A stretch of 64,000 bases of DNA from assembly GCA_030159075.1 (NCBI GenBank), contig BROG01000131.1, forward strand, positions 1 through 64,000, given 5' to 3'. The position numbers and the translations under genes are program-made. The stretch is from Atrina japonica. Taxonomy: Eukaryota > Mollusca > Bivalvia > Pterioida > Pinnidae. Under the pieces are notes generated by a model that was given only the letters and a program-made list of their open reading frames with translations, was not told where the DNA came from and made no database searches. Positions within the stretch are counted from its first letter, which is position 1, and each line of letters starts with the position of its first letter. This document shows, in pieces, positions 21,501 to 64,000 of this stretch.

Positions 21501-24500
21501 CTCCCAAATTATACATTTTTACTTATAGCTTAAAAAAACCTTTACAGCCCCACACTTAAACCATATATATTACTGATTGTTATGGTGTATGTAGGTGTCC
21601 TGTCCCAGCCTCTGAAATATGTACTTACTATACTTTGATATCAAAGCCAGGACCAGTGAGACATATAATTATGTGTAATTCTTGTTTTACTAAATGCAGG
21701 TCATGACCGGCATTTTCACTTTTAGAGGTTGACAGGTGTCATTCTGTAACTTCATCAACAGAATGAAAATCATGATGGACTTTTGTATTTTTATTGCAAT
21801 GAAATTTAATTTCAACAAATTTGTTCTAATTTTTAAACAACAAAATTTTAATCCCCTCAGAATTTTCTGATTCTACATTATTCTACAGTATCAGCACATG
21901 TTGTGATGTTTTTTATTATCTGAAGAGTTTCATCTTGAACACAATGAATCAGTTTAATAAAATCCTAAAAAAAACATTAATTTTATTATAATTCAGAAGA
22001 ATGGGGATCTGACATCTGAGACAGCACAAGTCTTGTTCACCCAGTCAGTAGCATTTTCCCTTCACCTCTCATGGTAAAAACAAATTATCAACCAAAACAG
22101 AAATTTAAGAAATTTGGTGTAAGGGCATGGCTGCTACACAATTTTCATGTTTTCAGACTCATTGGTCAACAATAAGCAGTGGCTGGACATATTTGCAAAC
22201 CATTTTAATTTTTTCCTTTTCTAGATTCAGGATTAATACAACTTCCGGTCAGATAACCACTGCTCAACCTCTGGATTATGAAACCTCAACATCTCATCAG
22301 TTTTTAGTTTTAGCAACAGACACAGGGAATAGCCCACGAACGGGTACTGCGACTGTAATTGTGAATGTTCTTGATATACAAGATCAGACTCCATTGTTTA
22401 TAAGTGGCCCATTGGAAACAACTGTAAGAGAAGATGCCCCCATCGGAGGAACTGTCATTGAAGTTGAGGTAAGATTAAAGATTGATGACTACATTTTTGT
22501 GTGTACCTACCTACCTGTCAGTAACTTCCTTGTAATTCTTTAGCAAAATTTTATAAATTAACATGTATGTGAATTTTGACAAGAATTGACCCAAGCATTA
22601 CATAAAAAAAGATTTAATACAGAAAGCTATTGGAAAATGGCAAGTGTTGACTCACTTTTGGCACCATGCTTTAACATTTTATCAGTTTATTAGTTATTTT
22701 TAAAATCATATGTAATATGTAATATTTTGGGTTATTTATTCCTTATTAATTGCTCAATTGATTAAAGACAGGGTATTTTCCTTGGAAGTGAATCGATGGA
22801 TGTCAATCTGGATCACTTACTTACTGCATACTTGGCCTAAGAATTTAGCATAAGCTAAATACTGTGGACGTGTCTTAACCTATGACTTATTGGCTGTCAT
22901 TGTTCACTACTCAGATAAAGAAATTACAGAATATGATAGTTATGCTTAAATGAAAATGGAGACCTGTCTTTAGAGACCATTCTGATAAAAGACCACCTGT
23001 CTTCTGATATCACATTTCAGTGTTGGATAGGGTAGTTTCTCAAGACAATTTTCACTGTACTTTACATATGAGCATGTGCATCCTCAGTGACTCATTAAAT
23101 GTGTCTAATTTAAACTTATAATCTTGTTGTTGCAGGCTGTTGATAGAGACACAGTCAATGATATAACATATGAATTTTTGTCTGGAGATTTTTCTGACTT
23201 CACAATAAACCCGAACAGTGGATTGATAACGGTTAAATTCAGTTTAGATTATGAGACAAAGACACGTTATCAGTTTACCGTCACCACATCTCAAGGAAAA
23301 AACACGGGTTTGCCATCATCCAATGTTCAAGTTACCGTTAATATACTGGTAAATATGAAAATATATATTTTGATAACTTGATTCTTTCTTTTTGCATGCA
23401 TAGTAATATGTTTGTGTCTTTTTTAAACCCATTTATCCCTGAAGAAACACTTGGACTGGTCTGAGTCATTGAGTTACATAAGAGTCCATTGTTTTTCAAG
23501 GGTTGATGATTTAAACTGTTAAGATTTAATTTTTTATAAAACAGCTCATTCGATTCGATGAAAATGCAAGGTTAAATCTGTATAACCTATTTTTATTTTC
23601 AAGTGAGGAAATATGTCAGCCGTTGCTAGGACAACAAGTGCAGCTGTTCAATGTATCATTGCAGTTTATCATCAATTGTTTGTCTTGTATTTTTTAAATA
23701 TCATTATTGCATATTTAAAATTGAATTTAAAGGTTTGTATTCTTTCCCTTTTTATTAAATTATAGGGATTAATATTAACTTTTCAGTTGTTTACTGAAAA
23801 ATAAACAATGTTGAGGCAGAGTACAATTTTTGTTTTTCACTTTGCGCTGTTCAAAGTGTACTGTGCCTCAACATTGGTTATTTTTCAGTAAACAACTGAT
23901 AAGTTAGTGTTAATCCTTAATTATTTCATTTGAAGATTGTTAATGTCTTTTCACCTGTGATATCAATTTGTACATGTTTGTTTCTGTAAACTGTTTTATT
24001 TCATTTAAAGGATACTAATGACTTTCCACCTGTCATATCACCTGTGCCAACAAACCTGGAATTTTTGGAAACCTTATCTGTCGGATCAATCCTGTTGAAT
24101 AGCATTACTGCTAGGGATAGTGACCAACAGGTATATTTTGTTTTAAGGTCACCTGTACCAAAGGCTACAGGTGACCTATTGCGATTGTCTGTTATCACCT
24201 GTTAATTCTGACATATTTTCAACTTCTAAAGAAGCAGCGGGCTAATTTGAACCTAACATGACAGGAAGTATAACCATGTGAAGCTGCATAAAGTTTGTGA
24301 ATTAGGATGAATTAAGGTTCCAAAGGGGGACCAAAACTTGGTACATCAAGATCAATTGACTTTCAAATTAATCAATTGACTTTCAAATAATGTATGCATG
24401 GTTGTTAAGTCAATATCTACAAAGTTTACAATGGGAAATGAAATTGGTTCATAAATGAGCAAATGGGGACACTTCAGTAACATAGAGTACAATTTTATAC

Positions 24501-64000: not shown

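Follow-up and report, generated by a model that had tools for sequence, protein, structure and literature searches.

A PCDH15/Cad99C-family cadherin gene of Atrina japonica with a probable seventyfold multiplication of its ninth repeat

What kind of cadherin has lost the canonical calcium motif from its linkers, repeat after repeat, and where did such repeats come from? The question is raised by the first 64 kilobases (kb) of a 1.37 Mb contig (BROG01000131.1, here C131) in the 832 Mb genome of the bivalve Atrina japonica (assembly GCA_030159075.1); this stretch of 64,000 nucleotides is referred to as the window. It carries an intron-rich cadherin gene on the plus strand, in which the linkers between successive extracellular cadherin repeats (ECs) read R-N, or a close variant, in place of DxNDN. 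Sequence comparison indicates that the gene, whose 5' part the window holds, is very probably a lophotrochozoan member of the PCDH15/Cad99C family with some 70 tandem copies of EC9.

A preliminary description of the window had reported an array of at least 15 repeats with [RKQN]-N linkers, placed at 24011..64000. All 15 of the quoted linkers lie inside open exons of one plus-strand gene, in the quoted order, with R or K at the first position in 13/15 and N at the second in 15/15. The span has to be redrawn at both ends, as the linker in the exon starting at 24011 is the canonical one between EC8 and EC9 (DTNDFPPVI), with RNTPPVF in the exon at 27445-27630 as the first of the R-N type, and as the array runs past 64000. 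No phase was imposed on the candidate exons of the window: all phases were tried, and the array exons proved to be in phase 0. When the 30 exons between 22232 and 63458 are spliced, each has a length that is a multiple of three, and the stop-free product of 1794 amino acids matches the Pfam Cadherin family (PF00028) in 17 stretches (E 2.2e-177). The exon layout mostly alternates between a type A (end of one EC, linker and start of the next EC) and a type B (middle of an EC), with a few fused A+B exons in the array.

Beyond the window, contig bases 64001-224000 were read as a chain of local hidden Markov model (HMM) matches and splice sites that admitted stop-free phase-0 exons only; seven exon ends were adjusted manually, and one exon was omitted. 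Up to 210.9 kb the whole chain, window included, comprises 142 stop-free exons encoding 7815 amino acids, with 72 consecutive non-canonical linkers, the last of the 72 at 209.8 kb. Their first position is R in 53 and K in 7, their second is N in 58 and D in 8, and the P is present in 69/72. The array is followed by a pair of cadherin repeats, then by a membrane-adjacent domain and a transmembrane (TM) segment: a final array linker, HAQIVDGQLGF, lies at 211.2 kb, the EC10-EC11-MAD12-TM exons at 211.2-218.4 kb match the C-terminal profile of relatives, and likely tail exons at 221.1-221.6 kb resemble the tails of relatives by eye, which takes the gene past the window to about 221.6 kb on the contig. 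The architecture is EC2-EC9, approximately 73 EC9-type repeats, EC10, EC11, MAD12, TM and a short tail. This amounts to about 84 ECs if EC1 exists, and to roughly 9,000 amino acids, rather than the 11 ECs of an ordinary PCDH15.

The family is indicated by both flanks of the array. EC HMMs built from eight PCDH15/Cad99C proteins match contig exons in the order EC2 (32.9 bits), EC4 (22.9), EC5 (43.7), EC6 (18.6), EC7 (58.9) and EC8 (54.5). The N-termini of the related proteins P0122, P0132 and P0264 match the EC1-EC9 HMMs in order, and in P0122 and P0264 the EC9 HMM matches once more after EC9 (EC9 of P0122 itself being weak, 28.4 bits). At the other end, hhalign of nine mollusc C-termini (440 columns) against nine PCDH15/Cad99C sequences gave a probability of 100 and an E of 5.4e-54 over 421 columns, with the alignment reaching through MAD12 and TM, whereas the same mollusc profile aligned to CDH23 (E 5.3e-14) and Dachsous (E 2.1e-21) in the ECs only. 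A C-terminal profile with the EC repeats included matched many cadherins through their ECs and was left unused. By sequence, the first and the last array linkers align to the EC9-10 linker, both without DxNDN, and the last, HAQIVDGQLGF, resembles the Cad99C EC9-10 linker HVATVAPEVGLGF. Compared with PDB entries, the Biomphalaria N-terminus scored 73.2 bits with PCDH15 EC2-3 as a single domain and 37.0 with the best CELSR1 domain (two alignments); over whole chains CELSR1 scored higher (167.1 against 116.7 for PCDH15) because it contains more repeats.

Database names suggest another family. Among the 36 R-N-rich relatives in the matches listed, 17 are named Fat 4 and 16 hypothetical or uncharacterized, and a long EC array is what one would expect of a Fat4-like protein in which R-N linkers had arisen independently within the Fat family. 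We consider such an origin very improbable, since the mollusc C-terminal profile aligned to Fat4 C-termini with a probability of 1.1 over 38 columns, and neither the C-terminal exons nor the C-termini of two relatives showed, in Pfam scans, the EGF or LamG domains that Fat4 proteins carry. In addition, a FAT4 EC is the best match for 1/69 array repeats and PCDH15 EC9 for 57/69. On the C-terminal profile and the repeat scores, a Fat4 identity taken from the names was rejected.

The repeat scores also address where the array came from. The 72 linkers delimit 71 intervals, of which 69 repeats of 85-130 amino acids were kept and 2 dropped; with the linkers stripped, these were scored against 53 EC HMMs, 11 from PCDH15/Cad99C and 42 from CDH23, FAT4 and Dachsous, the ECs of the latter three being only partly cut for this set. 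EC9 is the best match for 57/69 repeats among the 53 HMMs and for 63/69 among the 11 PCDH15 ECs, with a mean score of 53.5 bits against 36.9 for the next. The same holds for 199/228 repeats of 11 other proteins, compared with 11/180 canonical control repeats. A likeness to EC9 arising merely from shared motif loss is countered by the segment of strands C-E, which contains no calcium motif and in which EC9 is best for 52/69 repeats among the 11 HMMs and 44/69 among the 53; other segments counter it less strongly.

The coordinated motif loss therefore looks inherited from EC9. Human PCDH15 EC9 lacks DYE and DXNDN according to an excerpt of a published paper (PMC5120219), and copying such a repeat would leave DXD and XDX intact and DXE and DxNDN lost, which is the linker pattern as first noticed. 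The proposal that the repeats are a distinct EC subclass rather than a product of decay stands in so far as the pattern is coherent over 72 linkers, 36 mollusc-named proteins among the 237 listed and an annelid protein; a new, independently evolved subclass is not supported, because the repeats score as EC9 copies (63/69) and the loss in human EC9 had already been described.

Several results weigh against this reading of the gene as a PCDH15/Cad99C member with a multiplied EC9. The EC and N-terminal HMMs detected neither EC1 nor most of EC2 on the contig, which begins here; EC3 is weak (8-10 bits with its HMM); the EC9 exons of the window give no match to the EC HMMs and are called EC9 by position; and the piece at 20257..20327 matches the N-terminal HMM (11.0 bits) at a place that breaks the order. 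EC9 is not the best match for 6/69 repeats among the PCDH15 ECs and for 12/69 among the 53 HMMs, and it is best for only 44/69 (11 HMMs) and 30/69 (53 HMMs) over the first 60 amino acids and for 51/69 and 22/69 over the last segment. A search with a Biomphalaria N-terminal query (best 120 of 525 matches) places unnamed multi-EC proteins with 33-53% coverage above every non-lophotrochozoan Cad99C/PCDH15 among the matches listed. Downstream of the window, phase and openness are built into the restriction to phase-0 exons, at least one further array exon must sit in a 5 kb N gap (C131 72501-77500), and a B exon at about 169220-169390 is interrupted by a poly-G run of more than 100 bases and was the one omitted from the chain.

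The poly-G run and the N gap are likely assembly faults, and they are what would favor taking the whole array for an assembly artefact or a dead gene, in which one exon pair had been collapsed or expanded in tandem. It is extremely unlikely that this accounts for the array: the window exons are stop-free without an imposed phase, the repeats have diverged (18 exon-A peptides show 18-41% identity to the first one), and the array is common to other mollusc genomes, with a repeat order that is partly conserved across six mollusc proteins (Spearman 0.59-0.84).

With respect to the distribution of the array, two protein database searches (best 120 of 890 and best 120 of 547 matches) yielded 237 distinct proteins. 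By a narrow R-N pattern, which undercounts array linkers and whose single CDH23 match (one protein) is not a linker, 36 of the 237 listed contain at least four R-N linkers and the other 201 at most three. All 36 are mollusc-named, with Magallana, Saccostrea, Pinctada, Tegillarca, Mya, Solemya and others among the bivalves listed and Gigantopelta, Nucella, Haliotis, Aplysia, Biomphalaria and others among the gastropods. A distribution limited to molluscs, as these 36 of 237 would suggest, was dropped on account of an annelid protein, Lamellibrachia satsuma 'Cadherin-99C' (P0264), in which six R-N linkers come after a canonical EC1-EC9. The same narrow pattern found none in the five arthropod proteins examined. 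Among the non-mollusc-named matches listed with at least 80% coverage in the N-terminal search, 5/11 are named Cadherin-99C or protocadherin-15.

A cadherin survey from 2023 describes, in the part available, PCDH15 as conserved in bilaterians and apparently lost in Crassostrea gigas (PMC10734073). The matches listed include two Magallana (Crassostrea) gigas proteins with array repeats (P0002 and P0007) and a 'Cadherin-89D' of that species (P0266) with 35% identity over 81% of the N-terminal query. Among the papers listed in literature searches (6 to 20 rows of up to 2,162), no title or abstract opening describes this mollusc array or an EC9 expansion. Separately, a 'cadherin-99C-like' protein of Littorina saxatilis (P0255, 1062 amino acids) has PCDH15-like early ECs followed by TM and tail, with no array; it is a possible short paralogue or isoform.

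Which calcium ligands do the array linkers retain? In the 69 complete repeats the XEX acid is present in 54, DXD is intact in 57 and the XDX Asp is present in 63, whereas the first Asp of DXE is present in 0/69 and an acid at its third position in 30/69. Looser patterns give a similar contrast between array and canonical repeats, with D.D in 57/69 against 180/180, LD.E-like in 8/69 against 159/180, XEX-like in 37/69 against 150/180 and XDX-like in 66/69 against 177/180. The array linker is a half-site, with the upper ligands (DXD, XDX) largely intact and the lower ones (DXE, DxNDN) gone. This agrees with the preliminary description, according to which the mid-repeat L-D-[RY]-E is lost while A-x-D-x-D and A-x-D-x-G-x-P persist.

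Its reading of the linker itself holds in part. With P-x-F as the anchor, none of the 15 window linkers retains either Asp of DxNDN, but a few of the 72 have one of them: D occupies the first place, just before the R-N pair, in 7 and the second, just after it, in 2 (both in none). The first Asn, described as kept, is so when the alignment is anchored on P-x-F; with the preceding beta strand (V-x-V-x-R) as the anchor, R takes the place of the first D of DxNDN and N that of the x, as the linker is shorter by one residue or more, and 12/72 linkers are shorter still. From the sequence, R-N can be laid on DxNDN in more than one register.

With the lower ligands lost and the upper kept, each linker would be expected to bind fewer than three Ca2+ or none and to hold its domains at a non-canonical angle; the missing ligands make such reduced binding plausible. 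One structure prediction was made for each type of EC pair, without ions. The Saccostrea R-N pair (20 aligned rows) was modeled with AlphaFold at pLDDT 94.8 and pTM 0.74, and a control canonical EC6-7 pair from Nucella (9 aligned rows) at pLDDT 93.2 and pTM 0.73. Among the 50 PDB matches listed by Foldseek for each, the control pair reached TMq 0.68-0.89, the best being mouse PCDH15 EC6-7 (TMq 0.89, root-mean-square deviation [rmsd] 1.7 Å), and the R-N pair TMq 0.45-0.58 (rmsd 5.6-9.6 Å). Single R-N domains are thus predicted to look like ordinary ECs, with an interdomain angle that is modeled as neither canonical nor like the PCDH15 hinge.

These models bear on the view that array repeats are ordinary three-calcium ECs, in which substitute ligands would preserve canonical rigidity and calcium dependence. 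The acids retained at DXD, XDX, XEX and the third DXE position speak for it, as do the 7/72 linkers with D at the first place of DxNDN, and mouse PCDH24 EC2-3 is described in an excerpt as keeping its linker straight and holding two Ca2+ despite a DXE that reads SYN (PMC8691648). Nevertheless, we regard it as unlikely, given that the first Asp of DXE is missing throughout, that no linker has both Asp of DxND and that the predicted geometry of the R-N pair lies outside the canonical range.

Another view lets the conserved Arg or Lys take the place of calcium: its side chain would lie within the upper acidic cluster (DXD, XDX) and make a rigid, calcium-independent linker. R or K occurs in 60/72 linkers, beside acids kept in 57-63 of 69 repeats, and in the strand-anchored alignment the Arg stands at the first Asp place of DxNDN, but its presence is not associated with intact DXD or XDX (p 0.39 and 1.0; 69 repeats). 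We judge this, too, to be improbable.

In a bolder reading, which we hold to be possible but less likely than not, PCDH15 would not have been lost in lophotrochozoans but turned into a giant spring of about 70 EC9 copies, largely calcium-independent and roughly 0.35-0.4 micrometre long, joining bundles of cilia or microvilli in epithelia, mechanosensory or otherwise, with a conserved Arg replacing part of the Ca2+. The main reading of the gene goes less far. PCDH15 binds cadherin-23 through EC1-2 and acts in mechanosensory links or microvilli; by analogy, the far N-terminal ECs would bind a partner and MAD12/TM would anchor the filament. The lower half of each array linker, without DXE and DxNDN, resembles EC9 at the calcium-free EC9-10 hinge, and some seventy such linkers in series would form a tether that is long and compliant and depends less on calcium, spanning about 0.35-0.4 micrometre (at 4.5 nm per EC) from one microvillus, cilium or cell to another. 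The architecture, the ligand inventory and the conservation come directly from the computations, and the ancestry of the parts is likely; the reduced Ca2+ binding, the compliance and the tether function are inferred.

Also weighing against the main reading are the R-N pair model, which superposes on the PCDH15 EC8-10 and EC9-10 crystals at 8.9 and 11.7 Å (VIA-align), although the interdomain angles of one R-N pair and one control modeled without ions are weak evidence, and the lack of association between R/K and the upper acids. Furthermore, an array linker could still hold some Ca2+, as DXD and XDX remain. The upper ligands of vertebrate PCDH15 EC10 are lost as well (PMC5120219, in excerpt), so that the EC9-10 linker lacks lower and upper ligands, whereas array linkers lose the lower only. 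The same excerpt describes the EC9-10 linker as calcium-free and bent, with unbending proposed as a source of elasticity, and the EC8-9 linker as binding three Ca2+ by means of the upper ligands of EC9.

Compared with vertebrate PCDH15, the Atrina protein has the same EC order, an EC8-9 linker of the form D.ND[FY], a non-canonical EC9-10 linker, EC10, EC11, MAD12 and a single TM, as well as an EC6-7 fold that in its Nucella relative is modeled within 1.7 Å. It differs in the approximately 73 EC9-type repeats between EC9 and EC10 and in the R-N of the array linker, where PCDH15 has HPG-E. Arthropod Cad99C shares the EC order and the membrane-adjacent domain, and its EC9-10 linker ends in GLGF where the last array linker ends in QLGF, but it has no array. 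P0264, P0122 and P0132 have EC1-EC9 and then R-N repeats from EC9-10 onward; P0264 differs as a model of 1630 amino acids with no C-terminus. Models of the mollusc giants (P0121-P0138) reach 7438 amino acids, and many are incomplete; nine mollusc models have the C-terminus in common.

Bendable inter-EC linkers without Ca2+ ligands were reportedly described by Jin et al. in 2012 for Drosophila N-cadherin and others. Such linkers are single or few per chain, whereas here about 72 are consecutive and keep DXD and XDX. Calcium-free linkers (PMC8325961, PMC5120219) and partly calcium-free ones (PMC8325961, PMC8691648) are already known from the excerpts of these sources, as is the PCDH15/Cad99C family; what is new here is the roughly 70-fold expansion of EC9. 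If the spring reading is true, this is one of the longest cadherins, and it is derived from protocadherin-15. In the vertebrate tip link PCDH15 makes up the lower half, and a possible elastic role of its calcium-free EC9-10 hinge is a live question in hearing research. The repeat that adjoins this hinge would here be multiplied about seventy times, in an array that bivalves and gastropods have retained and that has a related counterpart in an annelid, and such an array would be a natural amplifier for measuring the elasticity and calcium dependence of EC9-type linkers on one molecule.

The exons upstream of the array all lie on the plus strand and were placed with the EC HMMs and with an N-terminal HMM of lophotrochozoan relatives. 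The end of EC2, the EC2-3 linker DGNDLDP and the start of EC3 are at 3388..3519 (EC2 HMM 32.9 bits, N-terminal HMM 21.3), followed by two EC3 pieces at 4911..5022 (N-terminal HMM 13.5, EC3 HMM just 8.2) and 6331..6482 (approximate start; 19.0 and 9.6, donor score 7.2). The EC3-4 linker and first part of EC4 lie at 7650..7823 (approximate start; EC4 HMM 22.9, N-terminal HMM 42.5) and a further EC4 piece at 9110..9238 (N-terminal HMM 13.3, EC4 HMM 6.3). At 11311..11475 the N-terminal HMM (46.9 bits) places the end of EC4, a canonical linker DINDNSP and the start of EC5; the best EC HMM for this linker-rich piece is EC7 (19.4 bits). EC5 occupies 12399..12607 (EC5 HMM 43.7), and the EC5-6 linker TGVKPPVI with the start of EC6 is at 13382..13511 (N-terminal HMM 34.3, EC6 HMM 10.2). 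EC6 continues in an open-frame piece at 16799..16879, whose ends are not set (EC6 HMM 18.6), and in an exon piece at 18251..18338 (N-terminal HMM 14.5, EC6 HMM 10.1). The EC6-7 linker DINDENP and the start of EC7 lie at 19120..19245 (N-terminal HMM 33.5, EC7 HMM 20.0, acceptor score 5.9), and the approximate, uncertain piece at 20257..20327 is put in EC7 by its place (EC7 HMM 20.0, EC2 19.8, EC5 18.1).

The spliced chain begins at 22232..22468 with the end of EC7 (LDYE present), the linker DIQDQTP and the start of EC8 (EC7 HMM 58.9). Most of EC8, again with LDYE, is at 23136..23348 (EC8 HMM 54.5). The exon at 24011..24130 adds to the EC8-9 linker the first part of EC9 (N-terminal HMM 15.0), and that at 25450..25599 holds the middle of EC9, in which LDYE is already replaced (SFMDD; N-terminal HMM 5.2). 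The array exons were placed by the spliced chain, those with linkers also by linker alignment. The first A exon, at 27445..27630, contains the end of EC9, RNTPPVF and the start of the next repeat, and is followed by the B exon 27795..27926. Pairs of A and B exons, B encoding the middle of a repeat, continue at 32609..32791 (RNSNDPVW) and 33201..33332, and at 34587..34778 (RNVNPPIF) and 36950..37081; a fused A+B exon at 37628..37957 carries KNLFPPVW. Further pairs are 38768..38956 (KNRPPFF) and 39496..39621, 40925..41104 (RNLYAPIF) and 41651..41782, 42240..42431 (QNNFAPTI) and 45529..45651, and 46969..47172 (NNLESPRL) and 47929..48051, after which two fused exons follow at 48331..48651 (RNNFAPQW) and 51478..51795 (RNIFPPRI). 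The remaining pairs are 52386..52574 (RNRFAPVI) and 53393..53521, 55369..55554 (RNINAPVF) and 57023..57169, 57689..57877 (RNSNPPNI) and 60409..60540, and 61663..61848 (RNFDAPKF) and 62493..62615; the last A exon in the window, 63273..63458, carries RNQFPPVF and has its donor at 63458 or 63461.

In the introns, a minisatellite at 25780-27400 consists of units of roughly 40 bases (GTTAGTTATACC.TCCTGTTATGTACAATGTTATCTCATGGT), and a second one, with units of about 34 bases, occupies much of a large array intron at about 28000-31050. The intron preceding 24011 holds, by eye, a long inverted repeat with a short loop that resembles a miniature inverted-repeat transposable element (about 23790-23925; TTTTCAGTTGTTTACTGAAAAATAA ... 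TTATTTTTCAGTAAACAACTGA). Farther along C131, at about 120-210 kb, repeats with A-Y-D-[ST]... and R-N alternate by eye with repeats with A-x-D-[QN]... and R-D or another linker, which suggests a two-repeat duplication unit. Elsewhere in the same genome, contig C389 (4877-272463, plus strand) has exons that reach 55% identity with those of the array and is a paralogue or a second giant gene; several of its matches recur at a second set of places on the contig (for example, 61961 and 235618; 124347 and 271843), as if by duplication or merged haplotypes.

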